A DNA stretch of 33,658 bases from Lactobacillales bacterium (GTDB taxonomy: Bacteria > Bacillota > Bacilli > Lactobacillales > Vagococcaceae). Each line of letters begins with the position of its first letter. The stretch's first letter is position 1. The stretch lies in contig JAATGB010000145.1 of NCBI GenBank assembly GCA_015654945.1, forward strand, positions 1 to 33,658, given 5' to 3'. The notes beneath the pieces are model-generated. The model made no database searches. It saw only the letters and a list, made by a program, of their open reading frames with translations, and was not told the origin of the DNA. The translations under genes were made by a program, and so were the position numbers. Below, one piece after another: positions 2,515-32,718 of the stretch.

Positions 2515-3984
2515 ATGAACAGCAGAGAAATAATTCAAATCGTGGAACCAATTAAAAAATATGGACAGTTAGATGAATTAGAGCTTGGTTCGATTTCTCA
2601 AGATACAAGAACTGTGCAAAAAAATTCTTGTTTTGTATGTATTGAAGGAGCACAAGTGGACGGACACCTCTTTGTCGCACAAGCTGTTAAAAACGGTGCA
2701 GTCCTCATTATTGCAGAAAAAGCGATTGATTCTACTGTACCCTATCTCCTTGTCCAAAATTCCAAAAAAGCATTCGCACAATTAAGTGCTGCCTTCTGCG
2801 GGGACCCAACGAAAGAACTCGCTATAATTGGTGTGACAGGAACAAATGGCAAAACTACGACTACGCATCTTATTGAAGAGGTATTGCGTAATAGCGGGAA
2901 ACCAACGGGAATAATTGGCACCATGTACAATAAAATTGGGGCGAAAAAAATCCCAACAATTAATACGACACCGGATAGTTTAACCATTCAAAAATTATTA
3001 AAGCAAATGAAAGATTCTGCAATTGAAGCTTGTGCAATCGAAGTTTCTTCTCATGCGCTGTTTCAAGGAAGAGTCTGGGGTGTTGATTTTGATGTTGCTG
3101 TCTTTACTAATTTGAGTCAAGACCATTTGGAATATCATCATACGATGACGGACTATTTTTATGCGAAAAGTTTATTATTCTCCCAACTTGGGAACAGCTA
3201 TCACGATGATCAGAAAAAGAAAACGGCAGTGATCAATATAGATGACGCATATGGAAGAAAACTGTTGCCACTTACGTCGGCTAATGTCGTAACTTATGGT
3301 ATCCAAAATTCTGCGACGATTCAAGCTTTAGATGTTAAAGTGACGAGTAAAGGAACTCAATTTACTTTGGCTTTTCTGGATGAAGTTTATCCGGTTACGA
3401 TGAAGCTGATCGGCGATTTTAATGTCTACAATGTGTTGGCTGCTGTTGGTTCCTGCCATGCTTTGGGAGTAAAGACAGAAGTGATCATTCGTGCAATTGA
3501 GCAAATCAAGGGTGTAAGAGGACGGTTCGAATTAGTTCCGAACGAACAAGAAATCACTGTGATTGTTGATTATGCACATACGCCAGATGGCTTAGAGAAT
3601 GTATTGAAAACTGCCAGAAAATTTGCCGAAAAAGATGTTTACTGTGTTATTGGTTGTGGCGGAGATCGGGATCCAGGGAAACGGTCTGTTATGGGAAAGA
3701 TTGCGGTTGAATATGCGACACACGCCATGTTTACTTCTGATAATCCCCGAACAGAGGATCCAGAGGTCATTTTAGATCAAATGACGGAACAACTTGTTGC
3801 TGCAAGTTATCAGCGCGAGACAGATCGTAAAAAAGCAATTGAAACAGTTTTAGCACAAGCTAAGACAGGTGATGTGGTCTTAATTGCTGGTAAAGGTCAT
3901 GAAGACTATCAAATCATCGGAAAAGAGAAGCATCCTTTTGATGATGTGACAGTTGTGAAAAATTATTTTAGACAGATAAATTAG
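2515..3984 (+). CDS. murE: UDP-N-acetylmuramoyl-tripeptide synthetase MurE, meso-diaminopimelate-type signature
   Basis: Cytoplasmic Mur ligase that adds the third stem-peptide residue to UDP-MurNAc-L-Ala-D-Glu using ATP. Seen: the N-terminal UDP-binding domain, the ATP loop [10 protein letters not shown] (K113), TTPDS, EVSSHAL, the [12 protein letters not shown] motif, a YAKSLLF lysine likely to be carbamylated, [13 protein letters not shown] and [11 protein letters not shown]. Substrate-specificity residues are DNPR (409-412) and GKGHE (459-463). In MurE proteins of known structure DNPR plus GKGHE marks meso-diaminopimelate addition, whereas lysine-adding enzymes have other residues. The 489-residue length is normal. 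It sits between the PBP gene and mraY, as in Bacillus and unlike the Enterococcus faecalis arrangement as I remember it. The ribosome site is a weak AGGTGA. Identity is sure; third-residue specificity is inferred from motifs. Confidence 0.96.
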
Positions 3985-3994
3985 GAGAATTCAA

Positions 3995-4960
3995 ATGGAA
4001 TGGACACAAGCATTAATACCTATTGCAACAAGCTTTGCGCTAACCTTTAGCATTATGCCGATCTTTATTGCGTATTTTTTAATGAAAAAGCAAGGGCAAT
4101 CAATTCGAGAAGATGGACCCACCTGGCATAATAGTAAAACAGGAACACCAACGATGGGTGGTGCGGTATTTCTGATAGCTATTGTAGTTTCATCGCTACT
4201 TGTAGCATTATGGCAACATGTTGTCACACCCTCTTTTGGAATTATTCTGTTCATTCTCATTTTATATGGTACATTGGGATTTCTTGATGATTTTATCAAA
4301 ATATTTAAAAAACGAAACATGGGTTTAAATTCAAAGCAAAAATTAATGGGTCAAATTATTGGCGGCGTTGTTTTTTATGGAATTTACCGGTTAGAAGGCT
4401 TTGGTAATGAAATCGCGGTCCCCGGATTAGGAACCATTCATATCGGCGTTTTATATGGCGTTTTTGTTGTTTTTTGGTTAGTTGGATTTTCAAATGCGGT
4501 TAATTTAACCGATGGCATAGATGGCTTGGTATCTGGGTTAGCAATTCTCTCTTTTGCGACCTATGGCATCATTGCGTGGAAGCAAGGACAACTCGATGTA
4601 TTGATTATTTGTTTAGCGACGATCGGTGGTTTAGTCGGTTTTATTCCTTTTAATCGAAAGCCGGCGAAGATTTTTATGGGAGATGTTGGTTCACTTGCTT
4701 TAGGCGGGATGCTAGCGGGTATTTCAATCTTGCTACATCAAGAATGGTCATTGTTACTGATTGGTTTTATCTATGTTTGTGAAACTGCCAGTGTATTACT
4801 ACAAGTTACTTCTTTCAAATTAACTGGTAAAAGAATTTTCAAAATGAGTCCCATTCACCATCACTTCGAAATGAGTGGCTGGTCAGAATGGAAAATTGAT
4901 ATTATTTTTTGGATAGTGGGATTTGTGATGTCTGCGCTCACGCTATTAATACTCTACTAG
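3995..4960 (+). CDS. mraY: Phospho-N-acetylmuramoyl-pentapeptide transferase MraY
   Basis: Integral membrane enzyme that moves phospho-MurNAc-pentapeptide from UDP onto undecaprenyl phosphate, giving lipid I. It is 321 residues with about ten hydrophobic segments, the usual family size. Active-site motifs are visible: DDF (D98, D99), NLTDGIDGL (N170, D173, D176), FMGDVGS (D230) and the family-specific SPIHHHFE (H288-290) near the C-terminus. The ATG at 3995 follows a TAGGAGAA ribosome site, 10 bases after the murE stop. It supplies lipid I to MurG encoded two genes downstream and uses product made by MurE, MurD and MurF, of which MurF is not in this window. Confidence 0.98.
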
Positions 4961-4978: not shown

Positions 4979-6343
4979 ATGAAAAAAGTTACAACTTACG
5001 AAAATAAAAAAATCTTGGTTTTGGGATTAGCCAAAAGTGGCGTCAGTGCAGCCAAATTGCTCCATAAACTAGGTGCATTTGTAACTGTAAATGATTTCAA
5101 AGAATTTTCTGAGAATCCCGAAGCGCAGGATTTATTAAAAAAAGGTATCAAGGTTGTAACCGGTAGTCATCCTGTTGAGCTATTGGATGAGGGATTTTCA
5201 TTAATTGTGAAAAATCCTGGAATTCCTTATACAAACCCTATTATCGAGAAAGCAATTCAAAAAGGAATTCCGATTATTACAGAAGTTGAACTTGCCTACG
5301 AAATTTCGGAAGCACCATTTGTCGGAATTACTGGGACAAATGGAAAAACGACAACGACAACCATGATTGCGGAAGTTTTAAATCAACAAGGAACCAAAAA
5401 CCAAGCACGATTAGCTGGAAATATTGGCTATCCTGCAAGTACGGTTGTACAAGAAGCAAGTCGAGAAGATGTTTTGGTGACAGAGCTTTCCAGTTTTCAG
5501 CTTTTAGGTATCCAGCAATTTCATCCTCATGTTGCGGTGATTACCAATCTTTACTCAGCACATCTGGATTACCATGAAACAAGAGAAGCATATGTGCAAG
5601 CCAAATGGCGAATTCAAAAAAATATGACGGCACAAGATTTTCTAATCTATAATGCAGACCAAGAAGAGCTAAGTCATTTAGCGCTGACTTCTGATGCTAA
5701 AGGAGTACCATTTTCAGCTGTTAAAGTGGTAAAGGACGGTGCGTATCAATTAGAAGGAAAGCTTTATTACAAAGATACGTATATTATGGAAAGTCACGAT
5801 CTAGGTGTGCCCGGTACGCATAATATTGAAAATGCGCTAGCAACAATTGCTGTGGGTGGAATTTACGAAGTTGCGCCTGAAAAAATCAAATACGCATTGT
5901 GTCATTTTTCGGGTGTTCCTCATCGAACACAGTATATTGGCGAATGGCAACAACGAAAGTTTTATAACGATTCGAAGGCGACAAATATTTTAGCAACAGA
6001 AAAAGCATTAAGTGGCTTTGAACCGGGAAAAGTGGTCCTGTTAGCCGGTGGTTTAGATCGAGGCAATAATTTTGATGAATTGGTCCCTTCCTTAAAGGGA
6101 ATCCACACGATTGTTTTATTTGGAGAAACGCAAAAAAAATTAGCGGAAGCAGCAGAAAAAGCAAAAATTCCTGAAATATTATTTACGAAAAATGCGGAAA
6201 GTGCGGTAGCACTTGCATTTGAGCATAGTAGAGAAGGCGATAGTATTTTACTTTCACCTGCCTGTGCTAGTTGGGATCAGTACAAGAATTTTGAAGTTCG
6301 AGGCGATCGTTTTATCGCGGCGTATAAAAAATTAAAAGAATAG
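4979..6343 (+). CDS. murD: UDP-N-acetylmuramoyl-L-alanine--D-glutamate ligase MurD
   Basis: Cytoplasmic Mur ligase adding D-glutamate to UDP-MurNAc-L-alanine, the step before MurE. The 454 residues fit the family. Seen: an N-terminal Rossmann-like domain with [15 protein letters not shown], the ATP loop [13 protein letters not shown] (K123), [28 protein letters not shown] and the C-terminal [20 protein letters not shown], which separates MurD from the other Mur ligases. The ribosome site is CAGGGAGAG, 18 bases after mraY. No unusual residues were noted. Gene order mraY-murD-murG is standard for lactic acid bacteria, where spoVE/ftsW is not placed between murD and murG. Confidence 0.98.
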
Positions 6344-6353
6344 AGTGAATACA

Positions 6354-7448
6354 ATGAAATTACTTATTACAGGAGGCGGTACAGGAGGTCATATTTATCC
6401 GGCACTTGCTCTGATTAGGGAAATCAAAAAAAAAGATCCAACTAGTGAGTTTTTATATGTGGGAACGAAAAATGGCTTGGAGAGTAAAATTGTACCGGCC
6501 GAAAACATTCCATTTCAAACGATCGAAATTCAAGGCTTCAAGCGTTCACTCTCTTTAGATACGCTTAAAACACTTTCTTTATTTATAAAAAGTCTCAAAG
6601 TTGCTAAAAAAATGATCAAAAAATTTCAGCCAGATGTGGTATTAGGTACGGGCGGTTATGTGAGCAGTGCAGTTGTCTATGCTGCTTATAAATTAGGGAT
6701 TCCGACCGTGATTCATGAGCAAAACAGCGTACCTGGCATGACCAATAAATTTTTGGCAAGATATGTTGATAAAGTGGCGATTTGTTTTTCTGATGCGGCG
6801 CAATACTTTCCTAAAGAAAAAGTGGTCCTTACAGGAAACCCACGAGCACAAGAGGTTTATGGCATACCACAATCAGCTGTTATTAAAAACTATCAATTAG
6901 ATCCAGCGAAACCAACCGTGCTTATTTTTGGTGGCAGCAGAGGTGCCGCCAAAATTAATCAAGCAGTCAAAGAGGCAATTACGGAGTTTACAACTAAAAA
7001 CTATCAGATTCTTTATGCGTCAGGTGAAATTTATTATGAAAAAATCCAAATGGAATTAAAGGAACAATTACGTCATGCACAGAACATTACAGTGATTCCT
7101 TATATTTCGGATATGGAGCAAGTTTTAGCAAATGTGACGTTAATTGTTGGACGAGCGGGGGCAACTTCATTAGCTGAAATTACAGCATTAGGCTTGCCAT
7201 CAATCTTGATTCCAAGTCCCAATGTAACCAATGATCATCAGACGAAGAATGCGCAAAATTTGGTGAAAAATGGTGCTGCGGTCATGCTAAAAGATGGGGA
7301 GCTTTCTGGTGAATTATTAGTGACAACCATTGATGAATTGATGGATGATCCATCAAAGTTACACAGTATGGCAAAAATTACGAAAGAGGCTGGAATTCCA
7401 GACGCTGCAGATCGCTTATATGAGTTGGTGAAGACAATTACGAACTGA
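6354..7448 (+). CDS. murG: UDP-N-acetylglucosamine--lipid I GlcNAc transferase MurG
   Basis: Peripheral membrane GT-B glycosyltransferase that converts lipid I to lipid II. The protein starts [20 protein letters not shown], with the glycine-rich lipid-binding loop at 7-13. Further family motifs are [32 protein letters not shown] and NDHQTKNA; the last two line the UDP-GlcNAc site. From ATG 6354 it is 364 residues. The ORF track begins at GTG 6345, but this lies too close to the murD stop and has no ribosome site, while [13 protein letters not shown] is the usual family N-terminus, so ATG 6354 is preferred. The gene is 10 bases downstream of murD and co-transcribed with it. Confidence 0.97.
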
Positions 7449-17687: not shown

Positions 17688-19211
17688 TTACGATAATTTA
17701 CCCTTTTCGCGGTACCATTCATCTGGTTGCCAGACCCATTCAAAGCCATCCTGCGCAAGTAATTCAAAAGCAGAAGGTGGTCCCATGGTTCCACTGGCAT
17801 AGTTAGGGAAGTCGATTTCTTTTTTATCCCAGGCAGCACGAATGACATCCACAATGCGCCATGACTGCGCGACTTCATCCCAATGAGTAAAGTTCGTTCC
17901 ATCGCCATTTAAACAGTCTAAAATCAATTTTTCATAAGCTTCCGGACTATTTCCAGTTGTTTCAGAAGAATGGCGGAAATCGAGCTTTACAGGCCGTAAA
18001 TCGAATCCTTGACCAATCTCCTTACCATTTAGCGCTAAAGAAAATCCTTCTGTTGGTTGAATGTAGATGGTTAATACATTTGCGGGAATTTCTTTTTGTT
18101 GCTCAAGAGGTTCTTCTGGATCACGGAAAATATTAGTTGCAACCGATTTGAACACAATATTAATGCGTGTTCCTTTTTCAGTTAAATGTTTTCCGGTACG
18201 CACGTAGAAAGGAACGTCATTCCAACGTAAGTTATCAATTAGAAATTTCCCCGCAACAAAGGTTTCGGTTTGTGAGTGCGGAGCCACATTTTTTTCTTTG
18301 CGATAAGGTAGAAATTTTTGTTCTTCTAGTACACCAGGACCATATTGCCCGCGAGTGAAATTTTTTTCGGCTTCCTCTTCTGAATAGATCCTGACCGCTT
18401 TCAAGGCCTTCACTTTTTCTTCACGAATAGAGGTTTCTGAAAAAATAGTTGGTGGTTCCATGGCAAGAAGTGCTACAACTTGGAGAATATGATTTTGGAT
18501 CATGTCTTTTAACGCGCCACTCTTATCATAATAACCGCCACGTTCTTCAACGCCAAGAAATTCAGCAAAAGTAATCTGAATATTGTCAATGAAATCTTTG
18601 TTCCACATGGATTCAAACAGGGTATTACCAAAACGAATCGCCGAAATGTTTTGAACCATTTCTTTGCCTAGATAATGATCAATGCGATAAATTTGTTCCT
18701 CTGCAAAGACCTTGCGAATTTGTTCGTTGAGTTCTGAAGCGGATTGAAAGTCGGATCCAAAAGGTTTTTCAATAATTAAACGATTAAAGCCGTTTTCTGT
18801 CACGATGTTTTCTGTTTTTAAATGTTCTATAATAGTGCCAAAAAAATTTGGTGCCATTGCCAAATAAAATAATCGATTGCCTTGAAGATGATATTTTTTA
18901 TCAAGAGAATCTGCTAACTTTTCCAGCGTCACATAGTGCTCGGTATCTGTAACATTGTGTGATTGATAATAAAAATGACTCGTAAAAGAAGTAAGCTCTG
19001 CCTCCGTTGGTTTTAAATCAGCGAGTGTTTCTTTGACAATTGTCCGATAATAGTCATTTGTCCATTCTCTTCTTGCGGTACCAATTACGGCAAATTTTTC
19101 TTGTAAATCTCCTTTACGAAAAAGACGAAAAAGCGAAGGATAAAGTTTTCTTTTGGCAAGATCTCCTGTTCCGCCAAAAATGGTAAAGAGTGCAATATTT
19201 TCTTGAGGCAT
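17688..19211 (-). CDS. zwf: Glucose-6-phosphate 1-dehydrogenase
   Basis: Oxidises glucose 6-phosphate to 6-phosphogluconolactone with NADP+, the entry to the oxidative pentose phosphate pathway. Seen: the nucleotide-binding FGGTGDLAKRKLYPSLF (12-28), EKPFG (148-152) and the active-site signature RIDHYLGK (176-183, with the catalytic His), then the typical beta-sheet dimer domain with PFYVRTGKHL. The 507-residue length is right. The start ATG at 19211 has GTGAGGAATAATT upstream. In Enterococcus faecalis, as I recall, zwf also follows ileS and is next to a DtxR-family gene, so the neighbourhood is conserved. The NADPH made here could feed glutamate synthase encoded nearby; that link is inference. 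Confidence 0.98.
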   Translation of the reverse strand: MPQENIALFTIFGGTGDLAKRKLYPSLFRLFRKGDLQEKFAVIGTARREWTNDYYRTIVKETLADLKPTEAELTSFTSHFYYQSHNVTDTEHYVTLEKLADSLDKKYHLQGNRLFYLAMAPNFFGTIIEHLKTENIVTENGFNRLIIEKPFGSDFQSASELNEQIRKVFAEEQIYRIDHYLGKEMVQNISAIRFGNTLFESMWNKDFIDNIQITFAEFLGVEERGGYYDKSGALKDMIQNHILQVVALLAMEPPTIFSETSIREEKVKALKAVRIYSEEEAEKNFTRGQYGPGVLEEQKFLPYRKEKNVAPHSQTETFVAGKFLIDNLRWNDVPFYVRTGKHLTEKGTRINIVFKSVATNIFRDPEEPLEQQKEIPANVLTIYIQPTEGFSLALNGKEIGQGFDLRPVKLDFRHSSETTGNSPEAYEKLILDCLNGDGTNFTHWDEVAQSWRIVDVIRAAWDKKEIDFPNYASGTMGPPSAFELLAQDGFEWVWQPDEWYREKGKLS

Positions 19212-19266
19212 AATTATTCCTCACTTTCATCAAAGTTTTAATAGCGATAAAAAAGCATTTGAATCT

Positions 19267-19295
19267 ATTTTACTGTTTTTAATTTACGAAAGCAA
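19267..19295 (-). promoter_or_regulatory. Probable zwf promoter
   Basis: Read on the - strand: TTGCTT, 17-base spacer, TAAAAT, located 55-84 bases before the zwf start codon in the short gap after the regulator gene. The -10 matches 5/6, the -35 only 3/6. Confidence 0.5.
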
Positions 19296-19316
19296 GAACT
19301 TAGAAACGCGCAGAAT

Positions 19317-19970
19317 TTATTCGACTGTTTCCACAAAAATATTATGAGCTGCTTTGTAACTAACATGAATAGTATTCCCTAATTGGTCTTCTAGAGAAAT
19401 CGGACCTTCGTATGCACCAATCTCTGTGATGGTAACTACGTCATGAATATGTAACTGAATCGTGACCAAATAATCCAGCAGTTCTTTTTCATCTAGCACA
19501 CGTTCAATACACACTTTTGTATGAAGTGGGAAATCTGCAAGTGTCTGATTAGACTTCTCGAAAATGGGTTCATCTTTAGGCGGAATCACACCGCCATGAG
19601 GGCAAGATTCTGGGTACTCAAGGTATTCTGCCAAACGATCTGTCAATTCTTCTGAAGAAACATGTTCCAAGACCTCGGCTTCTTCGTGGACAGCATTCCA
19701 TGAATAATTTAAATGCTCGACCAAAAAAACTTCCCAAAGTCGATGCTTACGCACCAAAGTACTTGCTTTATTTAAGCCGCTTTCAGTCAATTGAACACCC
19801 TGATAAGGAGAGTGTTTCACGAAGCCTTCCTTTTCCAATTTGCCAACCATTTCACTGACAGAAGCTGCAGAGACATTCAAACCTGAAACGATTTGCTTAT
19901 TATTTATTTTCTGTTCATTACCACCAAGTTCAAAAATAAGTTTTAAATAATCTTCTTTATTAGGAGTCAT
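19317..19970 (-). CDS. DtxR/MntR-family metal-dependent transcriptional regulator (manganese type, with C-terminal SH3-like domain)
   Basis: Cytoplasmic metalloregulator. Seen: an N-terminal winged helix (about 5-65, with recognition segment NVSAASVSEMVGKLEKEGFV), a dimerisation/metal domain (about 70-140) and a C-terminal FeoA/SH3-like domain (about 150-217). Metal ligands by alignment to Bacillus MntR are D7, H76, E99, E102 and H103; the position of DtxR Cys102 is Glu, the manganese-type set, while the MntR E11 position is Lys (K10). ESCPHGG (about 142) is the usual linker motif. The three-domain layout resembles ScaR, MtsR and EfaR. It is 105 bases upstream of zwf with its own promoter; no Mn transporter gene is nearby. 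Confidence 0.9.
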   Translation of the reverse strand: MTPNKEDYLKLIFELGGNEQKINNKQIVSGLNVSAASVSEMVGKLEKEGFVKHSPYQGVQLTESGLNKASTLVRKHRLWEVFLVEHLNYSWNAVHEEAEVLEHVSSEELTDRLAEYLEYPESCPHGGVIPPKDEPIFEKSNQTLADFPLHTKVCIERVLDEKELLDYLVTIQLHIHDVVTITEIGAYEGPISLEDQLGNTIHVSYKAAHNIFVETVE

Positions 19971-20015
19971 AAAAATTCCTCGCTTTCACTCTCCTATTTT
20001 ACCAAAAAAACACGA

Positions 20016-20024
20016 ATTATACCA
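20016..20024 (-). promoter_or_regulatory. Extended -10 promoter of the DtxR-family gene
   Basis: On the - strand TGGTATAAT is a perfect extended -10 about 46 bases upstream of the start codon at 19970. No good -35 is present, as is common for this class. Confidence 0.6.
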
Positions 20025-20131
20025 ATTTTAATCGAGTTCGAAGGTAAAAGAGAGTCGAAACAATGGGTAAATAAAAAAAGAAAATTTTGGGAAAAATGGA
20101 AAAAGATAACAAAATTTATGCGCTTTTTTTA

Positions 20132-20146
20132 AATTTTTAGAAAATT
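20132..20146. promoter_or_regulatory. CodY box upstream of gltB
   Basis: AATTTTTAGAAAATT matches the 15-base CodY consensus AATTTTCWGAAAATT at all positions but one (T for C at position 7). It lies 14 bases before the -35 of the gltB promoter. CodY control of glutamate synthase genes is known in Lactococcus; control here is inferred from the site. Confidence 0.65.
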
Positions 20147-20160
20147 CCAAAATCTTGCTG

Positions 20161-20189
20161 TTGCTATATCTACCAGAAACATGTAAAAT
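20161..20189 (+). promoter_or_regulatory. Probable gltBD promoter
   Basis: TTGCTA, 17-base spacer, TAAAAT (5/6), 57 bases before the gltB start codon. It lies in the 276-base divergent gap between the DtxR-family gene and gltB; the rest of this gap is AT-rich with no ORF of note. Confidence 0.6.
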
Positions 20190-20246
20190 ATAAAAAAATA
20201 AAAGAGTCATCTAAATTGACTTAATTAGCGAAAAGGATGGATCGTA

Positions 20247-23200
20247 ATGAACAAACAGATACCTTTACCAAACCAAACCATGTATGATCCCGCATTTGAA
20301 AAAGATGCCTGTGGAATGGGGTTTGTGGCACAAATTGATGGGATTTCTTCACATCATCTTGTGGATCAAGCGCTGACTGTTTTAGAAAGAATGAACCATC
20401 GTGGTGGGACAGGATCTGAGCCAGACACTGGAGATGGCGCAGGCATTTTAATGTCATTACCAGATATTTTTTTCCAGAAAAAAGCTGCAAAACAACACGT
20501 CTTGTTACCAGAAAAAGGAAAATACGCAGTGGCAATGTTATTTTTGCCACAAGAAGAAACAAGTAAACAACAAATGCTGGATGAAATTACGCAAGAGACG
20601 CAAAGACAAGGTTATCGTGTGCTTTGGACGAGAGAGGTTCCATTTGCCTTTGAAAATTGTGGTCCGACTGCGCAGAAGGTGATGCCGAGTTTTTGCCAAA
20701 TTTTTATTGAGAAGCCAATGGATGTGACGGTCGGCAGAGAATTCGAAGATCAATTATTTAGGTTACGTCGACAAGTTGAAAAAGTTTTTTCCCCGAATGA
20801 GCTAACGATTGTGAGTCTTTCTTCTCAAACAATTGTGTACAAAGGAATGTTACATGCCTACCAAGTACGGTTATTTTTCCCGGATTTACAAGATAAAACG
20901 ATGGAAACCTCCATCGCCTTGGTTCATTCACGCTTTTCAACCAATACTTTTCCTAGTTGGGATCGGGCACAGCCGTTCCGATTTCTTGCACATAATGGCG
21001 AAATTAATACGTTACGCGGCGCAGAAAACTGGATGCAAAGCCATAATGTCGAAGTTTATAATGAAGAAAACTCAGATTCAGCAAAATTAGAGAATTGTAT
21101 GGAATATTTATACCGCCAAGGAAGAGACATTCCACATGCTTTGATGATGATGGTTCCTGAAGCTTGGTCGAAAGAAGCGCGATTATCCGATGAACTAGCC
21201 GCATTTTACGAATACACCGCAAATTTTATGGCCCCGTGGGATGGACCTGCTGCACTTTGCTTTACTGACGGCATCCAAGTAGGGGCTGCGCTTGATCGAA
21301 ATGGATTAAGACCTTCTCGTTATTCGCTCACGAAAGACAACTTTCTTGTTGTAGCCTCTGAAGCGGGTGTGGTGGATCTTGACCCTGCAACGATTATTGA
21401 AAAAGGTGTATTAGGTCCTGGTAGTATGATTCTGGTTGATACGCAGACTGGTAAATTTATGCGAAATGAAGAAATTAAAGAAAAATATGCAACCGAACAT
21501 CCCTATCGAGTATGGCTACAAGAAAATTTAGTAACACTCGATATGCTTCATCCTGAAATTAAAGAGGATACCCATCTAAGTCCGGCTGAATTACAAACAA
21601 TGTGGAAAATGCACGGATATACGGATGAGGTGATTCGGACATTGATCGTGCCCATGGCAGAAAATGGCGAAGAACCGGTTATCTCCATGGGATTTGACTC
21701 GCCTTTGGCCATTCTTAGTGAGCAACCACAATCTTTATTTACGTATTTCAAACAACAATTTGCTCAAGTCACAAACCCGCCGATTGATGCTATTCGTGAA
21801 AAATTAGTCATTGGAACCGAAATGTTTTTAGGTGCGGATGGGGATTTTAATCAGGACTTTGCTGGAAATTGCGCCAAAGTGAAAATTGATAGCCCGGTTC
21901 TTTCAGAAGCCGATTTTATGAAAATTAAAAGTCTAGCAACTGAAGCACAAAAAGCACAAACAATCTCCATTCTTTACAGTAAAGGTGCGGATCGACCAAA
22001 TCGGCTGCAAAAAGCGATGGAAGAGTTTTGCAAACAAGCAGAAGAGTACATAGACGCTGGTAATACGATTCTAATTTTAAGTGATAGAGGACTGACAGAA
22101 GGAAAGTTAGTGATTCCGATTTTACTTGCTGTAGCTGGGTTGCACCACTACTTGATTGGCAAAGGCAAACGGAATCAAGTTTCACTTGTTGCCGATACAG
22201 CTGAGGTTTGTGAAGTTCACCATTTTGCAATGCTGATTGGTTATGGTGCCAGCGCAATTTATCCGTATGGGGCATATGAAACATTGCGTGATTATCATCT
22301 GGAAGCACAAACTGAAAAGTATCGAAAAGCAGCTGAAAAAGGCATTATTAAAATCATGTCGCGGATGGGGATTTCAACAATTGCTGGTTATCATGGCGCG
22401 CAATTATTTGAAGCAGTCGGCATTTCACAGAAAGTGGTAGCGCACTATTTCACTGGGACTTCAAGCAGAATTGGAGGACTTTCGCTAGATCAAATTGAAA
22501 AGGAATATTTATCACGTTATACGTATGCGTACGGCGAAAAGAAAAATGATTTTTTACCTTCTGGCGGTAGTTTCCAATATAAAGCCGATGGGGAGCATCA
22601 TTTGTATAATCCCAAGACCATTTATAATTTTCAAAAAGCGGTTCGCCAAGGTGATTATGCTTTATTTAAAGAGTATATTGAGCAAATGAATCAGGAGTCA
22701 CAGGAAACCCCCACAACCTTACGTTCTCTTTGGACGTTAAAAAGCAGCTTAGCACCTGTTAAGCTTTCAGAAGTGGAGCCAGCAAAAGAAATGGTCAAAC
22801 GGTTCAAGGTAGGGGCTATGAGTTATGGCTCACTAAGCCAAGAAGCACATGAATGTCTAGCGCAAGCGATGAATGCTATTGGTGCAAAGAGTAACAGTGG
22901 TGAAGGCGGGGAACATCGAAATCGCTTTAAACCTAGAAAAAATGGGGTTAATCTAAATAGCAAGATTAAGCAAGTTGCTTCCGGCAGATTTGGTGTGAAT
23001 ACAGAATATTTAATGAGTGCAGAAGAAATTCAAATTAAGATGGCACAAGGAGCAAAGCCTGGCGAAGGTGGACAACTTCCGGGCAATAAAGTATTTCCCT
23101 GGATTGCCGAAATTCGGGGTTCAACGCCCGGAGTACGGTTAATTTCACCACCACCGCATCATGATATTTATTCGATTGAAGATTTAGCCCAATTAATCTT

Positions 23201-24788
23201 TGATTTAAAAACAGTCAATCCTTATGCAGCGATTAATGTCAAATTAGTATCAAGTACAGGTGTGGGAACAATTGCAACTGGTGTTGTCAAAGCTGGTGCG
23301 GACAAAGTAGTGATTTCTGGTTATGATGGCGGAACAGGAGCTTCACCCAAAAATTCGATTCGTGATGCCGGCCTACCATGGGAGATGGGGTTGGTAGAAG
23401 CACACCAAACCTTAACCATGAATCATCTTCGTCAACGCATGACACTCGAAACCGACGGGAAATTAATGACTGGTCGTGATATCGCAGTAGCCATTCTTTT
23501 AGGCGCCGAAGAATATAGCTTTGCCTCTTTATCATTGGTAGCGGTTGGTTGCGTGATGATGCGCGTGTGTAACTTAAATACTTGCCCCGTCGGCGTAGCC
23601 ACCCAAAATCCAGTGTTGCGGAAATTCTTTGCTGGAAAGCCAGAGCATGTGATTAATATGATGATGTTTTTGGCCGAAGATTTACGGGAAATTATGGCTG
23701 AAATGGGCTATCGGACAATTGATGAAATGATCGGACATACAGAACATTTACAACCTAAATTTGTGGCAAAAGGCAAAGCAAAATCTTTAGACTTCTCGGC
23801 AATGCTTGGCACAACCTATGGCATTGAACGGAAAACAACGGTACCATTTTTAGCCAAACGACAATGGCAGGAATTAGATGCTTTTGCAGAAGTTGCACTC
23901 GCTTCAAAACAAGAAACAAAAATTCAACAACTGATTAATAACCGTGATCGAACAGTGGGGGCACGGATGGGCGGTTGGATTGCCGAGCGCTTTGGCAATT
24001 ACGAGCTTGCCCAAGGCAAAGTTAAGTACGAATATACGGGGACAGCAGGACAAAGCTTTGGCGCATTTGTGACCCAAGGCATGGAGCTGACCTTAATTGG
24101 CGAAGCCAATGATTATGTAGGCAAAGCGTTGAGTGGGGGACGTTTAATTATCATGCCGCCGAAAAATGCTGCTTATCAGACGGAAGATTCTCCAATTGTG
24201 GGGAATGTGGTTTGCTTTGGTGCAAATCGCGGGGAAGGTTATTTCAATGGTCGTGCGGGTGAACGATTCTGTGTAAGGAACAGCGGGGCCGAAGTCGTGG
24301 TTGAAGGCGTTGGCGATCATGGTTGTGAATACATGACAGGTGGTGTGGCAGTCATTCTAGGAACGACTGGCCGAAATTTTGCAGCTGGGATGTCTGGCGG
24401 TATTGCCTATGTATATGATCCGTTGAAGCAATTTCCAGCTAAATGTAATCTAGAAATGGTAGAACTATTTGGTCTGAATGAAAAGGGAAATGATGATTTA
24501 CTGAAAGAATTAATTGAAAAGCATGTTCATTACACCCATTCGAGAAAGGGTCAAAAAATTCTCGAAAACTGGGAAGAAGAAAAACAACATTTTGTCAAAG
24601 TCTATCCCACTGAATACCGAGAAATGGTCGAAGTAACCGATAAATTCAAAGCAGCAGGCTTCCAAGGCGATGAATTATTAACCAAGGCCTTTAACGAAGT
24701 GATGGGTATTACTGAAGTAGATCCAGTAATACCAACTGTCCAAACAGAAGCACTGCCACCAAAATTCACTGTGAAGGAGCGTCGATAA
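20247..24788 (+). CDS. gltB: Glutamate synthase (NADPH) large subunit
   Basis: Makes two glutamates from 2-oxoglutarate and glutamine, with electrons delivered by the small subunit. The 1513-residue chain has the full layout: a short propeptide ending before C22 (KDACGMGFVA), the Ntn glutaminase domain (about 22-430), the central domain, the FMN-binding synthase domain (about 830-1200, with GAKSNSGEGGEHRNRF and GYDGGTGASP) holding the [3Fe-4S] cysteines C1102, C1108 and C1113 (CVMMRVCNLNTC), and the C-terminal beta-helix (about 1270-1500, GEGYFNGRAGERF). The ribosome site is AAAAGGA. gltD starts one base after its stop. Named gltA in Bacillus nomenclature. Many lactic acid bacteria lack this enzyme. 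Confidence 0.98.
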   Translation: MNKQIPLPNQTMYDPAFEKDACGMGFVAQIDGISSHHLVDQALTVLERMNHRGGTGSEPDTGDGAGILMSLPDIFFQKKAAKQHVLLPEKGKYAVAMLFLPQEETSKQQMLDEITQETQRQGYRVLWTREVPFAFENCGPTAQKVMPSFCQIFIEKPMDVTVGREFEDQLFRLRRQVEKVFSPNELTIVSLSSQTIVYKGMLHAYQVRLFFPDLQDKTMETSIALVHSRFSTNTFPSWDRAQPFRFLAHNGEINTLRGAENWMQSHNVEVYNEENSDSAKLENCMEYLYRQGRDIPHALMMMVPEAWSKEARLSDELAAFYEYTANFMAPWDGPAALCFTDGIQVGAALDRNGLRPSRYSLTKDNFLVVASEAGVVDLDPATIIEKGVLGPGSMILVDTQTGKFMRNEEIKEKYATEHPYRVWLQENLVTLDMLHPEIKEDTHLSPAELQTMWKMHGYTDEVIRTLIVPMAENGEEPVISMGFDSPLAILSEQPQSLFTYFKQQFAQVTNPPIDAIREKLVIGTEMFLGADGDFNQDFAGNCAKVKIDSPVLSEADFMKIKSLATEAQKAQTISILYSKGADRPNRLQKAMEEFCKQAEEYIDAGNTILILSDRGLTEGKLVIPILLAVAGLHHYLIGKGKRNQVSLVADTAEVCEVHHFAMLIGYGASAIYPYGAYETLRDYHLEAQTEKYRKAAEKGIIKIMSRMGISTIAGYHGAQLFEAVGISQKVVAHYFTGTSSRIGGLSLDQIEKEYLSRYTYAYGEKKNDFLPSGGSFQYKADGEHHLYNPKTIYNFQKAVRQGDYALFKEYIEQMNQESQETPTTLRSLWTLKSSLAPVKLSEVEPAKEMVKRFKVGAMSYGSLSQEAHECLAQAMNAIGAKSNSGEGGEHRNRFKPRKNGVNLNSKIKQVASGRFGVNTEYLMSAEEIQIKMAQGAKPGEGGQLPGNKVFPWIAEIRGSTPGVRLISPPPHHDIYSIEDLAQLIFDLKTVNPYAAINVKLVSSTGVGTIATGVVKAGADKVVISGYDGGTGASPKNSIRDAGLPWEMGLVEAHQTLTMNHLRQRMTLETDGKLMTGRDIAVAILLGAEEYSFASLSLVAVGCVMMRVCNLNTCPVGVATQNPVLRKFFAGKPEHVINMMMFLAEDLREIMAEMGYRTIDEMIGHTEHLQPKFVAKGKAKSLDFSAMLGTTYGIERKTTVPFLAKRQWQELDAFAEVALASKQETKIQQLINNRDRTVGARMGGWIAERFGNYELAQGKVKYEYTGTAGQSFGAFVTQGMELTLIGEANDYVGKALSGGRLIIMPPKNAAYQTEDSPIVGNVVCFGANRGEGYFNGRAGERFCVRNSGAEVVVEGVGDHGCEYMTGGVAVILGTTGRNFAAGMSGGIAYVYDPLKQFPAKCNLEMVELFGLNEKGNDDLLKELIEKHVHYTHSRKGQKILENWEEEKQHFVKVYPTEYREMVEVTDKFKAAGFQGDELLTKAFNEVMGITEVDPVIPTVQTEALPPKFTVKERR

Positions 24789-24789
24789 T

Positions 24790-26229
24790 ATGGCAGATCC
24801 GTATGGGTATTTAAAATTTAAAAAAGTCGAAAATCCCTATCGTCCCGTGCAAGAACGGATCCATGATTGGAAAGAGCTGCAAACGCCTTTACCAACAGAA
24901 GAACGACAAAAGCAAGGCGCTCGCTGTATGAATTGCGGGATTCCGTTTTGTCACACTGGAGTCTTCTTTGGCGGGAAACGAGCCGTTTCAGGTTGTCCCA
25001 ATGATAATCTAATTCCCGAATGGAATGATTTGGTTTATCGCGGTGATTTCAAAAAAGCATGGGAAAGATTAAGTCGGACGAATCCGATTCCTGAAATGAC
25101 CGGTCGTGTCTGTCCTGCTCCTTGTGAAAAGTCTTGTACCGAAGCATTAAATGGACCGGGCGTCGCGATTCACGACAATGAACGCTTCATCATTGATCAT
25201 GCATTTGAACAAGATTGGGTCCGGCCAACTGGGATGCCTCAAGGACCGAAAACGGGTTTTAAAGTCGCAATTATCGGCAGTGGTCCAGCTGGGTTGTCAG
25301 CTGCTTGGCGTTTAAACCAGTTAGGGCATACGGTCACTGTCTTTGAACGCTCAGACCGTCCAGGGGGCTTGTTAATGTATGGAATTCCTAATATGAAATT
25401 AGACAAAGATGTAGTGGCACGTAGAATTCAAGTTATGGAAGAAGTCGGGATTGAATTTCAAGTGAAGACAGAAATTGGTGTTGATCTTACAGCAGAGGAA
25501 CTTTTTGCTGAATTTGATCGTGTAATTATTTGTACGGGAGCAGCAGTTGCGCGCGATTTACCAATTGCTGGCCGGGAGTTAAAGGGTATACGCTTTGCTG
25601 TGGATTATCTCACGGATGCGACTAAATTCGTTCTTGAAAACGGTAAAGAAGCAGTGGATCGAAGCCTAGTCGGAAAAAATGTGATTGTTGTAGGAGGCGG
25701 AGATACTGGAAATGATTGCCTTGCAACTGCAGTTCGCCAAGGCTGTCAATCAGTGAAACAATTTGAAATTAACCAAATGCCTCCAGAAAAACGCGCTGCA
25801 AATAATCTATGGCCTGAGTATCCGTTGATTCGAAAAATCGGCTATGGACAAGAAGAGGCACAAGAAACACAAACGGAACAAGTGAACTATTTTCAAACTT
25901 CAACAACTGCTTTTGTTGGTGAGAAAAATCAGGTGACCGGCGTGCACACAACGCAGGTGGACACAAACTTTCAACCAATTGCAGGTACAGAAGAAGTGAT
26001 GAAAGCGGACCTTGTCTTACTTGCTATGGGTTTTAGCGGTGTTCAAAAGAGTTTATTAGACCATTTAGATGTGGAAGAGGCATATGATGACTATTCGACC
26101 AATAATGAAAAAGTTTATTTAGCTGGTGATGCAAGAAGAGGACCGAGTTTGGTGATTTGGGCGATTCGTGAAGGACGTTTAGCAGCTGAAGCATGTGATA
26201 ATGCGCTGCGTTCATTAGTCTCCCAATAA
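24790..26229 (+). CDS. gltD: Glutamate synthase (NADPH) small subunit
   Basis: FAD- and NADPH-binding partner that passes electrons from NADPH to the large subunit. The N-terminal ferredoxin-like part carries two cysteine groups for [4Fe-4S] clusters: C46, C49, C54 and C69, and CPAPCEKSC (from about residue 112). Then come an FAD Rossmann motif (VAIIGSGPAGLSAAWRLN, about 158) and an NADPH motif (VIVVGGGDTGNDCL, about 298). It is 479 residues, typical. The ribosome site AAGGAG lies in the end of gltB, with one base between the genes, so translation is coupled. No terminator with a T-run was found after it; the next gene has its own leader. Confidence 0.97.
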   Translation: MADPYGYLKFKKVENPYRPVQERIHDWKELQTPLPTEERQKQGARCMNCGIPFCHTGVFFGGKRAVSGCPNDNLIPEWNDLVYRGDFKKAWERLSRTNPIPEMTGRVCPAPCEKSCTEALNGPGVAIHDNERFIIDHAFEQDWVRPTGMPQGPKTGFKVAIIGSGPAGLSAAWRLNQLGHTVTVFERSDRPGGLLMYGIPNMKLDKDVVARRIQVMEEVGIEFQVKTEIGVDLTAEELFAEFDRVIICTGAAVARDLPIAGRELKGIRFAVDYLTDATKFVLENGKEAVDRSLVGKNVIVVGGGDTGNDCLATAVRQGCQSVKQFEINQMPPEKRAANNLWPEYPLIRKIGYGQEEAQETQTEQVNYFQTSTTAFVGEKNQVTGVHTTQVDTNFQPIAGTEEVMKADLVLLAMGFSGVQKSLLDHLDVEEAYDDYSTNNEKVYLAGDARRGPSLVIWAIREGRLAAEACDNALRSLVSQ

Positions 26230-26281
26230 GTGCCGGCAATTAAACTAAAATAAATATTTATTGATTATTCGTCATATAGAG

Positions 26282-26310
26282 TATACTTTTTTGCAGAAGT
26301 GCGGTATACT
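26282..26310 (+). promoter_or_regulatory. Possible cold-shock gene promoter region
   Basis: Two TATACT -10-like hexamers lie at 26282 and 26305, with TTGATT at 26261 as a possible but short-spaced -35 for the first. Either would give a leader of about 115-145 bases before the start codon, a length typical for cold-shock mRNAs. Which one is used cannot be decided by eye. Confidence 0.35.
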
Positions 26311-26435
26311 AAGAATGTAATTTGTTTAGCAGCAACAAGAGGAAGACTATTTTACATCTGTTCTATATTCATCTTCTGTAGCGGTGGCAGTATTACAACT
26401 ATATCGTGCAACCTGCACAAGGAGGAAAATATATT

Positions 26436-26636
26436 ATGGCTCAAGGAACAGTAAAATGGTTTAATGGCGAAAAAGGTTTTGGTTTCATCACTCAAGAAGA
26501 AGGACAAGATGTATTCGTACATTTTTCAGCTATCCAAGGTGACGGCTTCAAAACATTAGATGAAGGTCAATCTGTAACTTTCGATATCGAAGAATCAGAT
26601 CGCGGACCTCAAGCAACTAACGTTGAAAAAAACTAA
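26436..26636 (+). CDS. csp: Cold-shock protein (CspA/CspB family)
   Basis: Single-stranded nucleic-acid-binding beta-barrel, an RNA chaperone. It is 66 residues, beginning [18 protein letters not shown], with RNP1 (KGFGFI, 13-18) and RNP2 (VFVHFS, from 26). The ORF track starts at GTG 26406, which would add ten non-family residues; ATG 26436 follows AAGGAGG (26419-26425) and gives the standard protein. A small hairpin GTGCA-ACC-TGCAC (26406-26418) touches the ribosome site. It stands alone between gltD and the dehydrogenase gene with its own terminator. Whether it is cold-induced or constitutive cannot be told. Confidence 0.97.
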
Positions 26637-26653
26637 TTTCATTTAGTAAATTT

Positions 26654-26695
26654 TAAAACTGGAAAGTGAGTGAAAACTCATCTTCCAGTTTTTTT
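26654..26695 (+). terminator. Terminator of the cold-shock gene
   Basis: ACTGGAAAGTGAGT (26658-26671), loop GAAA, ACTCATCTTCCAGT (26676-26689): a 14-bp stem with one mismatch and one G-T pair, followed by seven T. Confidence 0.93.
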
Positions 26696-26873
26696 GTGCA
26701 AATAAGTAATAAATGAAAATAAAAAGTTAGTCAGTGATTTTAGTTGGATTTATTGATTATTTGAAAGTGATGCGCAATAATAGTGAATAACAGTAAAATA
26801 TAGCAGACGATTATTCACGGGAGAAAGGCTAGTTTTTCTGATAAGAAAAAATGAGAATAGGGAAGTGTAAATC

Positions 26874-27797
26874 ATGCGTAAGGTAGGAATTATTGGTTTA
26901 GGACATGTGGGCGCAACAGTTGCTTACACACTCGTCACAGAAGGGCTAGTGGATGAACTTGTTTTGATTGATCAAAACGAACAATTAGCGTTATCAGAAG
27001 AATATGATTTGTTAGATGCTGTAGTCAATCTAACCAACAAAACAAAAATCATAATTCAAGATTATCAAGCATTGGCAGATGCGGAAGTGATCGTTTTTGC
27101 AGCAGGACAAATCAGTGCGTTGGGTAAGGCAGGCGACCGATTTAAAGAATTGGCCATTACGAGTAAAATTGTTGAAGAAGTCGCACCAAAAATCAAAGCT
27201 TCCGGATTTGAGGGAATCCTTGTAACGATTACGAATCCTTGTGATGTGATTGCAGCGTATATGCAAAAATTAACTGGATTTCCGACTAATCGAGTTTTAG
27301 GCACGGGAACAATGTTGGACACAGCGCGCATGAAACAAGCAGTTGGTCGTAAGCTAGGAATTAGCAGTAACAATGTGGGCGGCTATGTTTATGGTGAGCA
27401 TGGAAATTCACAATTTGTTGCGTGGTCAACTGTAACGGTGGGGAATCGACCGCTTTTAGAATGGAATCAAGAACTTGATTTAGCTGGCTTAACAGAAGAC
27501 GTTAAAGATGGCGGATGGAAATCTTTTGCCGGTAAAGGGTATACAAGTTATGGGATTGCAACCTGTGCTGCTCGGCTTGTTCGAATGATCTTAAACGACG
27601 CGAAAATCGTGATACCTGTTTCTACCTATAGCGAAAAAATGGACAGTTACTATGGACAACCTGCACTAATTGGAAAAGACGGCGTAGAAGCAATTGTTGA
27701 GTGCCAGTTAACGAAAGAAGAAAGGGCCTCTTTAGAAAGCTCAGTTGAAATTATTAAACAAGGACTGGCTAAATTGCCTTTAAATGCAGCAAAATAA
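26874..27797 (+). CDS. L-2-hydroxyisocaproate dehydrogenase / L-lactate dehydrogenase family protein
   Basis: NAD-dependent 2-hydroxyacid dehydrogenase, 307 residues. Seen: the Rossmann motif GIIGLGHVGATVA (5-17), VTITNPCDV, the mobile-loop Arg in AGDRF (R89), GTMLDTAR (D149, R152) and the catalytic His in GEHGNSQF (H176). GEHGNSQ and the AGQISALGKAGDRF loop, instead of GEHGDSE and the AG(A/C)PQKPGETR loop of true glycolytic LDH, point to the L-2-hydroxyisocaproate (HicDH) branch, which reduces branched-chain 2-oxo acids. The substrate is inferred, and lactate/pyruvate activity remains possible. It is a single-gene unit with its own upstream gap and terminator. Confidence 0.9.
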   Translation: MRKVGIIGLGHVGATVAYTLVTEGLVDELVLIDQNEQLALSEEYDLLDAVVNLTNKTKIIIQDYQALADAEVIVFAAGQISALGKAGDRFKELAITSKIVEEVAPKIKASGFEGILVTITNPCDVIAAYMQKLTGFPTNRVLGTGTMLDTARMKQAVGRKLGISSNNVGGYVYGEHGNSQFVAWSTVTVGNRPLLEWNQELDLAGLTEDVKDGGWKSFAGKGYTSYGIATCAARLVRMILNDAKIVIPVSTYSEKMDSYYGQPALIGKDGVEAIVECQLTKEERASLESSVEIIKQGLAKLPLNAAK

Positions 27798-27818
27798 GAT
27801 AGCGCTACTTATCCGGAT

Positions 27819-27850
27819 AAAATGATTTTCATAATAGAAAATCATTTTTT
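27819..27850 (+). terminator. Terminator of the 2-hydroxyacid dehydrogenase gene
   Basis: AAAATGATTTTC, loop ATAATA, GAAAATCATTTT: a perfect 12-bp stem followed by T residues. It starts about 20 bases after the stop codon. Confidence 0.88.
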
Positions 27851-27920
27851 ATTTTAAAAAACTGCAACATGTTCCGACAACTTTATTTCACTTTTCAAAA
27901 TTTTATTATAAAATGTCTAG

Positions 27921-27938
27921 ACTTTTAATTTTAAAAGT
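27921..27938. promoter_or_regulatory. Palindrome upstream of the 6-phospho-beta-glycosidase promoter, possible operator
   Basis: ACTTTTAATTTTAAAAGT is an 8+2+8 perfect palindrome ending 12 bases before the -35 hexamer. A repressor or activator site is possible; no regulator gene is adjacent, the nearest being the RpiR-type gene downstream. AT-richness makes chance formation possible. Confidence 0.4.
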
Positions 27939-27950
27939 ATTGTTTTTATA

Positions 27951-27979
27951 TTGATTTTCACTTTAATGATCGCTATAAT
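27951..27979 (+). promoter_or_regulatory. Promoter of the 6-phospho-beta-glycosidase gene
   Basis: TTGATT, 17-base spacer, perfect TATAAT, 32 bases before the start codon, with ribosome site GAAGGAG following. This is the best sigma-A promoter match in the window. Confidence 0.8.
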
Positions 27980-28011
27980 AAAGAGAATAAATGAAGTGAA
28001 GGAGCATTCAA

Positions 28012-29409
28012 ATGAAAACGTATAACTTTCCAGAAAATTTTTGGTGGGGATCTGCAGCGAGTGGGACACAAACCGAAGGACGATTACCGAACGACGGCAA
28101 AGGAGAAAATATTTGGGATTATTGGTACGAAACCAATCCAGAATTATTTTTCAATCAAGTTGGTCCTGGAAAAACGTCTCAATTTTTAAGTAAGTATGAA
28201 GAAGATATTCAATTAATGAAAAAAACGGGACACAACTCTTTTCGGACAGGAATCCAATGGAGTCGTTTATTTCCAAAGGGAACAGGAGAAGTGAATCAAG
28301 TTGCGGTGAATTTTTACAACAAAGTGTTTGATGAGCTGCTTGCGAATGACATTGAACCGTTTATTACCTTGTATCATTTTGATATGCCGTTAGAGCTGCA
28401 AAAAAAAGGTGGCTGGCTAAACCGAGAAACGGTGGACGCATATGTTGCGTATGCGAAAACTTGTTTTGAATTATTTGGTGATCGCGTGAAAAAATGGTTT
28501 ACCCATAATGAACCAATTGTTCCCGTAGAAGGTGGCTATTTGTACCAATTTCATTATCCAGCAGAAGTTAATATGAAACATGCAGTACAAGTTGGTTTTC
28601 ATGAAAATTTAGCAAGTGCTAAAGCAATTGCTGTGTATCATGGCTTGAAATTAGATGGTGAAATTGGGATTGTACTGAATCTAACACCAAGCTATCCAAG
28701 AGATGAGAACAATCCTGAAGATTTGAAAGCCTCACAATATGCGGATGCTTTCTTTAATCGTTCATTCTTAGACCCTGCTGTTAAAGGAACTTTTCCACCA
28801 AAATTAATTGAAGTTGTCAAGGAACTCAATATGGTTCCAGAGATGGAAGCAGATGATTTGGATGTAATTAAGAATAATACAATTGATCTGTTGGGAATTA
28901 ATTATTATCAACCACGCCGTGTCAAAGCAAAAGAAAGCGCAATTGACCACACGAACGGACCAATGCCAGATGATTATTTTGATAATTATGAAATGCCAGG
29001 ACGTAAAATGAACCCTTATCGTGGTTGGGAAATTTATGAAAAAGGGATCTACGATATTTTGATCAACGTTAGAGATAATTATGGTAATATTCGCTGTTAC
29101 ATCTCGGAAAATGGCATGGGTGTTGAAAATGAAGAACGATTTATCGATGCAAAAGGTGAAGTTCAAGATGATTACCGGATTGAATTTGTGACCGATCATT
29201 TAAAATTTGTCCATCAAGCTCTTGAAGAAGGGAGCAATGTCCAAGGGTATCACATGTGGACCTGTATGGATAACTGGTCTTGGCTAAATGCATATAAAAA
29301 CCGCTATGGCTTTATCTCAGTTGATCTTGCGCAAGATGGCAAAAGAACCATTAAGAAAAGCGGTTATTGGTTTAAGCAAGTTTCAGATAACAATGGATTT
29401 GAAGCGTAA
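28012..29409 (+). CDS. 6-phospho-beta-glycosidase, glycoside hydrolase family 1
   Basis: Cytoplasmic hydrolase that splits PTS-imported phosphorylated beta-glycosides, giving glucose 6-phosphate or galactose 6-phosphate plus the aglycone. It is 465 residues with the GH1 TIM barrel: N-terminal FPENFWWGSAASGTQTEG, acid/base E167 in THNEP (usually T[FL]NEP), nucleophile E366 in ISENG, and a C-terminal VDLAQDGKRTIKKSGYWF where phospho-glycosidases carry the phosphate-binding Lys. Gluco versus galacto preference cannot be read safely. It has its own promoter and terminator, and no beta-glucoside PTS gene accompanies it here. The 6-phospho assignment rests on the C-terminal loop and on the family found in this order. 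Confidence 0.9.
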   Translation: MKTYNFPENFWWGSAASGTQTEGRLPNDGKGENIWDYWYETNPELFFNQVGPGKTSQFLSKYEEDIQLMKKTGHNSFRTGIQWSRLFPKGTGEVNQVAVNFYNKVFDELLANDIEPFITLYHFDMPLELQKKGGWLNRETVDAYVAYAKTCFELFGDRVKKWFTHNEPIVPVEGGYLYQFHYPAEVNMKHAVQVGFHENLASAKAIAVYHGLKLDGEIGIVLNLTPSYPRDENNPEDLKASQYADAFFNRSFLDPAVKGTFPPKLIEVVKELNMVPEMEADDLDVIKNNTIDLLGINYYQPRRVKAKESAIDHTNGPMPDDYFDNYEMPGRKMNPYRGWEIYEKGIYDILINVRDNYGNIRCYISENGMGVENEERFIDAKGEVQDDYRIEFVTDHLKFVHQALEEGSNVQGYHMWTCMDNWSWLNAYKNRYGFISVDLAQDGKRTIKKSGYWFKQVSDNNGFEA

Positions 29410-29430
29410 TAAGTAAAATAGAAGCAAAGC

Positions 29431-29467
29431 AAAAGTAGCGGCAAATGAAAAAATTGCCGCTACTTTT
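29431..29467. terminator. Bidirectional terminator between the GH1 gene and the RpiR-family gene
   Basis: AAAAGTAGCGGCAA (29431-29444), 9-base loop, TTGCCGCTACTTTT (29454-29467): a perfect 14-bp stem with T-runs readable on both strands. It serves the convergent genes ending at 29409 (+) and 29472 (-). Confidence 0.93.
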
Positions 29468-29471
29468 TTTG

Positions 29472-30242: not shown

Positions 30243-30255
30243 AGGAACCTCTTTC

Positions 30256-30310
30256 TGTAAAAGTTTTCTTATTTTAAAGGTAAAAATGCCGGAAACTGAA
30301 AACCTTTACA
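30256..30310. promoter_or_regulatory. Pair of cre-like / operator sites in the divergent promoter region
   Basis: TGTAAAAGTTTTCT (30256-30269) and TGAAAACCTTTACA (30297-30310) each match the CcpA cre pattern TGWAARCGYTWWCW at 13 of 14 positions, with the central CG broken in both. They are also near-perfect inverted copies of each other (12 of 13). They may be CcpA sites or the binding sites of the RpiR regulator. Confidence 0.45.
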
Positions 30311-30320
30311 AAGAATTATA

Positions 30321-30329
30321 TGTCATAAT
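30321..30329 (+). promoter_or_regulatory. Probable extended -10 promoter of the kinase-PTS-aldolase operon
   Basis: TGTCATAAT is an extended -10 (hexamer 5/6), 41-49 bases before the kinase start. The second cre-like site occupies the -35 area, a position suited to repression. Confidence 0.5.
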
Positions 30330-30369
30330 TTTAGCATAGTAAAGTATGAATGAGAAGAGAGGAACGCGG

Positions 30370-32705: not shown

Positions 32706-32718
32706 AAAGGAAAAATAA

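Follow-up and report, generated by a model that had tools for sequence, protein, structure and literature searches.

We propose, with a probability of roughly 0.88, that the murE gene studied here encodes a ligase adding meso-diaminopimelate (mDAP), that it is an ancestral gene serving a wall of AsnB-amidated mDAP with direct cross-links, and that relatives of its host switched to lysine. The window, meaning the whole stretch of DNA analyzed (33,658 nucleotides), is the entire contig C71 of a 2.33 Mb assembly in 207 contigs that is estimated to be 82% complete. The proposal is built on the sequence, its signatures, gene presence and absence, synteny and trees; from these we infer the substrate actually used, the amidation, the cross-link chemistry and the direction of the switch. 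Judged by its sequence, the window MurE is a standard mDAP-adding enzyme, ordinary in itself. Its interest lies in the taxonomic setting.

The murE ORF (positions 2515-3984, + strand) is a single open frame of 489 amino acids with an ATG start. Aligning the protein, we located the mDAP recognition motif DNPR at residues 409-412 (3739-3750, +) and GKGHE, whose Glu contacts the side-chain amino group, at residues 459-463 (3889-3903, +). In two alignments, CGGDRD at residues 381-386 (3655-3672, +) takes the place of S(T/P)GxK in lysine-type MurE. The preliminary description had reported DNPR, GKGHE and the location of murE between a PBP gene and mraY, and the sequence bears out all three. It had also taken both motifs as markers of mDAP use. 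This stands for DNPR, whose Asn and Arg bind the distal mDAP carboxylate in the MurE of E. coli and M. tuberculosis; S. aureus MurE reads DNPA, without the Arg (PMC3829189). It does not stand for GKGHE alone. The lysine-adding MurE of T. maritima (4bub) reads DDPR and GRGHE at the aligned sites, and the Glu of the GKGHE site is also used by S. aureus MurE (PMC3829189), so GKGHE is the weaker and less diagnostic marker of the two. Moreover, the A409R substitution in S. aureus MurE (DNPA to DNPR) brought no gain of mDAP activity (PMC3829189), and thus DNPR marks mDAP specificity without fully determining it.

Among the relatives examined, the three sites go together. DAP-type MurE proteins carry CGGDRD, DNPR and GKGHE, as do the named references Listeria monocytogenes and Bacillus velezensis in the alignments. 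Lysine-type proteins carry S(T/P)GxK, DDPx and GKGx(D), with no Glu after GKGx; Enterococcus faecalis falls on this side, and Latilactobacillus curvatus shows nearly the same form. At the DNPR columns, all 24 aligned lysine-type relatives have DDPx, and E. faecalis has DDPA. Scoring the whole protein, we obtained 611.2 bits against the NCBIfam equivalog model of DAP-type MurE (NF001126, cut-off 373) and 361.6 bits, below the cut-off of 536, against that of lysine-type MurE (NF010628). With a full-length MurE at 611 bits against the DAP-type equivalog, chance resemblance is no issue. A protein search of genome contigs with the window MurE returned only distant MurE proteins (Nitrospirae, Planctomycetes and others).

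A MurE tree had been suggested in the preliminary description, together with searches for a second murE and for DAP synthesis genes. The tree that includes the named L. monocytogenes, B. velezensis, E. faecalis and L. curvatus proteins separates DAP from lysine types with 100/100 support and places the window MurE with the DAP type. In both MurE trees that we built, it stands beside the Listeria, Bacillus and Carnobacterium enzymes and apart from the lysine-type MurE of E. faecalis and Vagococcus. One could still suppose a lysine wall to which the window MurE contributes L-lysine in vivo despite its DNPR, given that specificity depends on more than the motif (PMC3829189) and that the T. maritima enzyme adds lysine with a DDPR/GRGHE site. 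However, the whole window MurE scores as DAP-type and under the lysine-model cut-off, it clusters with the Listeria, Bacillus and Carnobacterium enzymes, and its genome yielded an mDAP-type AsnB and neither D-Asp ligase nor FemAB. We therefore regard lysine addition by this enzyme as highly improbable.

The preliminary description had chosen Enterococcus for comparison. The organism is not an Enterococcus; it represents genus g1 in the Vagococcus family (f1). This family was identified by plasmid matches of 100% over 12 kb each, which mark three of its genomes as Vagococcus carniphilus (G003), V. xieshaowenii (G018) and Vagococcus sp. (G013). Plasmid matches likewise showed that family f2 includes Carnobacterium, f3 Enterococcus mundtii and f8 Listeria innocua. 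The sister of g1 is g8 (genome G028); their concatenated dcw proteins are 75% identical. Across 29 genomes of the family, a DNPR MurE located in the dcw cluster is the only murE in four genera, namely g1 (the window), g2, g5 and g8. A lysine-type murE (DDPx) that is not linked to dcw is found in 25 of the 29. The cut-off of NF010628 is exceeded in 21 of the 29 genomes and narrowly missed in four more, those of g4 (502-525 bits); the MurE proteins of g1, g2, g5 and g8 reach 355-386 bits only.

The dcw cluster of the window begins with ftsL (238-639), assigned by synteny with genomes G028, G020 and G001, and the division PBP gene (636-2474; PBP2X/SpoVD-like profile match) directly upstream of murE. 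Directly downstream of murE lies mraY (3995-4960; TIGR00445, 320 bits), and then come murD (4979-6343; TIGR01087, 418 bits) and murG (6345-7448; TIGR01133, 335 bits), all on the + strand. The order continues with ftsQ, ftsA, ftsZ and further dcw genes to ileS; among the later genes, the names ylmE, sepF, ylmG, ylmH and divIVA are given by position and conservation. The preliminary description had called this order that of Bacillus and not that of E. faecalis. Our comparison agrees, as murE lies between the PBP gene and mraY also in L. monocytogenes and B. velezensis and is found elsewhere in E. faecalis. Within the family, the distance from pbp to mraY is 1497-1521 bp in the DNPR genera, with murE in between, and -52 to 60 bp in the lysine-type members, where pbp abuts mraY (12 of the 12 whose dcw cluster was examined). 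The remainder of the window (17688-33162) holds genes of ordinary metabolism: G6PD, an iron-dependent repressor, both the large and the small subunit of glutamate synthase, a lactate/malate dehydrogenase-family protein, a GH1 glycosidase, an RpiR-family regulator, a PfkB kinase and PTS components.

We also checked the genes that would build the cross-link. Homologues of a putative D-Asp ligase occur in all 25 genomes with a lysine-type MurE and in none of the four DNPR-only genera. This ATP-grasp-like protein is encoded between the lysine-type murE and an aspartate-racemase-family gene (locus L041). Its closest plasmid matches, in lactobacilli, are annotated as carboxylate-amine ligase or hypothetical; these matches, the neighboring genes and a weak similarity to the ATP-grasp family suggest an AslA/Aslfm D-Asp ligase. 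In V. xieshaowenii, a break next to an A run divides the gene into two frames (L034:5519-6760), which may reflect a frameshift mutation, phase variation or an assembly error. Among the family genomes searched, FemAB proteins were found only in G005, G007 and G027. Neither a D-Asp ligase nor FemAB(X) was found in the window genome (82% complete) or in G001, G020 and G028.

The AsnB proteins of the four DNPR genera are 56-64% identical to AsnB of L. monocytogenes, a proven mDAP amidotransferase (PMC8554201), and 37-42% identical to the AsnH-like protein. The window genome contributes a 294-residue fragment at a contig end, with 60% identity to Listeria AsnB over 293 residues. The lysine genera have a protein about 40% identical to Listeria AsnB, and this AsnH-like gene directly adjoins the lysine murE in g6, most of g7 and two g4 genomes. 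AsnH amidates D-Asp bridges in Lactococcus (PMC4155827), and a place beside the lysine murE is what would be expected of an AsnH. We found no AsnH-like gene in the window genome (82% complete). Its asnB is cut by the end of contig C65, where it follows tlyA-argR-recN-corA. In G028, the order reads tlyA, argR, recN, corA, asnB, a DUF3397 gene, mraZ, rsmH, ftsL, pbp and murE. Since C65 and G028 share the order from tlyA to asnB, the most likely place of C65 is immediately upstream of the window.

Searching the window genome with the MurE query and the lysine-type model NF010628, we found only one murE in this 82% complete assembly. The other MurE-like matches were rejected as extra murE genes, being MurF (beside Ddl), MurC and the window's own MurD. 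With 82% completeness and 207 contigs, the apparent absence of a second murE or of a ligase gene could be missing data. The unassembled part might then hide a lysine-type murE and make the organism a two-murE species like G018 and G022, the two relatives in which both types occur. In both of these genomes, however, the DNPR copy is located away from the dcw cluster, and in the window it is part of it. G020 (100% complete) and G028 (99% complete) show the same pattern as the window genome, a single murE of the DNPR type inside dcw. Nor did the window genome yield the genes that accompany a lysine wall (AsnH-like, D-Asp ligase). Thus, we give a hidden lysine-type murE very little credence and retain the single DAP-type murE as our reading.

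G018 (V. xieshaowenii) and G022 carry the second DNPR MurE besides their lysine-type murE, and the AsnB encoded after it is 51-52% identical to Listeria AsnB and 38-40% to the AsnH-like protein. In G018 (L045:5315-11185; C1:740314-746184), a RodA/FtsW-like gene, murE2, a sodium:dicarboxylate-family (SDF) symporter gene and an mDAP-type asnB stand in a row. No dapB, no dapF and no dapH over cut-off were found in this genome. In the 5.7 Mb genome of G022 (L046:6890-10313), asnB follows the second murE with no symporter gene between them, and dapB, dapH and dapF are all present. A search for a plasmid source of the V. xieshaowenii murE2 gave only plasmid matches below 60% identity, the top ones being very large or chromosome-sized records. 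It is conceivable, though we think it rather doubtful, that the DAP-to-lysine switch was repeated and partly reversible and that V. xieshaowenii may build imported DAP into an alternative amidated peptidoglycan.

Further MurE-like ligases came up in these searches. G022 has a third one (L047:6981-8450), with NNPR, a disrupted GKGHE site (GMGPKSFYHQ) and the Pfam Mur ligase middle and C-terminal domains. Extra ligases at L126, L190, L191 and L129 (Carnobacterium family, including Carnobacterium sp. 17-4) and at L192 (f7) keep GKGHE or a similar motif and show LTVTELFG, TTDDLNG or TLDDLN at the DNPR site. Several of the Carnobacterium-family and f7 genomes with such ligases have two or three MurE-like matches each.

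The search for DAP synthesis genes covered DapB, DapH, the candidate M20 deacetylase, DapF and LysA. The window genome has LysA (495 bits), DapB (273 bits), DapH (393 bits) and DapF (186 bits, both Cys motifs kept), and its dapH adjoins an M20 amidohydrolase gene, a candidate for the N-acetyl-DAP deacetylase. As the DAP pathway also serves lysine synthesis, its presence by itself says little about the wall. The DNPR-only G020 (g5) differs. Its DapF homologue at the syntenic site (L205:8818-9774) has lost both catalytic Cys motifs and no DapH is over cut-off, so its supply of DAP must be different. G020 also encodes a second DapB-family protein (L199:6317-7132) a few kb from an apparent proline-reductase-type cluster; this protein probably does not belong to lysine biosynthesis.

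The history of the two types was followed in a tree of eleven concatenated dcw proteins. Genus g2 is basal in the family (88/89; g2 has 31% of the columns), followed by g1 with g8. Genus g5 is the sister of Vagococcus proper (100/100), and g4, g6 and g7 stand together. The DNPR genera are thus paraphyletic to the lysine genera. Forcing all lysine-type members of the family into a single clade gave a tree 322 log units worse, which was rejected (p-AU 9.6e-5); the constrained group had been defined by MurE type before the test and after the first tree was seen. The dcw tree needs at least three state changes with the Enterococcaceae counted in and the f9 row left out, a count that does not give the direction. 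Vagococcus proper has a lysine MurE that joins those of Enterococcus (100/96) and stands apart from the MurE of g4 and of g6/g7, and its gene has a genomic context different from theirs, which fits separate acquisitions. The gene content suggests that the family switched between wall types more than once. Given the rejection of a single lysine clade, the DAP state is most likely ancestral in the family and would have been replaced at least twice.

The same mDAP activity could have another history, in which a lysine-type ancestor gained the DNPR murE horizontally within its dcw cluster. The branch order inside the DAP clade is poorly resolved, and two f9-family sequences fall among the MurE of the Vagococcus family, as such a transfer would allow. 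But the site between the PBP gene and mraY is the same in Listeria, Bacillus, Carnobacterium and the four DNPR genera, which argues for a DAP enzyme retained and repeatedly lost. It is unlikely that the gene was inserted anew at precisely this place in up to three lineages, and the DNPR genera form a paraphyletic group with respect to the lysine ones. We consider a lysine-to-DAP gain very unlikely. The preliminary description had also offered an unusual murE as an explanation; the gene is most likely a retained ancestral dcw gene of the standard DAP type.

The wall predicted from these genes is most likely a directly cross-linked, amidated mDAP peptidoglycan. mDAP would be made through the acetyl branch by DapB, DapH, a likely N-acetyl-DAP deacetylase and DapF, and MurE would join it to UDP-MurNAc-L-Ala-D-Glu. 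AsnB, presumably encoded just upstream of the dcw cluster, would amidate the mDAP, and the stem peptides would be linked directly from mDAP to D-Ala, bridged by neither D-Asp nor an L-amino acid. The window murE would have come down vertically as the family's ancestral dcw murE. Relatives including Vagococcus proper would have lost the dcw murE and gained an unlinked lysine-type murE with D-Asp-bridge genes, at least two times independently. A DAP wall as in Carnobacterium had been one option of the preliminary description, and the single murE, the DAP genes, the mDAP-type AsnB and the failure to find a D-Asp ligase or FemAB favor it; we consider it very likely right.

Taxonomists have long used peptidoglycan type as a marker, and it decides which hydrolases, phage endolysins and host sensors recognize a bacterium; NOD1 and insect PGRPs read DAP. 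The gene data indicate both wall types within one family of lactic acid bacteria, which makes the Vagococcus family a natural comparison set for changing the third residue of the wall. We predict that genera g1, g2, g5 and g8 are DAP-type. In the open-access literature, we found no description of a DAP wall in Vagococcus or its relatives.

Comparing with known systems, the closest are the dcw-encoded mDAP-adding MurE enzymes of Listeria, Bacillus and Carnobacterium (NF001126), which have the same CGGDRD/DNPR/GKGHE residues, the same site between PBP gene and mraY and the same side of the tree. Only the host differs, being a member of the Vagococcus family, where lysine-type MurE prevails among the genomes compared. 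The mDAP wall of Lactiplantibacillus plantarum follows the same logic, with direct mDAP cross-links, amidation by AsnB1 and no aslA/D-Asp ligase (PMC4155827). There, asnB1 is reported to co-localize with murE, whereas in G028 and G020 murE is part of the dcw cluster and asnB precedes mraZ. The lysine-type MurE of Enterococcus and Vagococcus (NF010628) acts at the same reaction step as the window MurE. Unlike the latter, it shows DDPx and S(T/P)GxK, lacks the Glu after GKGx and is encoded outside dcw, in genomes where the putative D-Asp ligase and AsnH-like genes are present as well.
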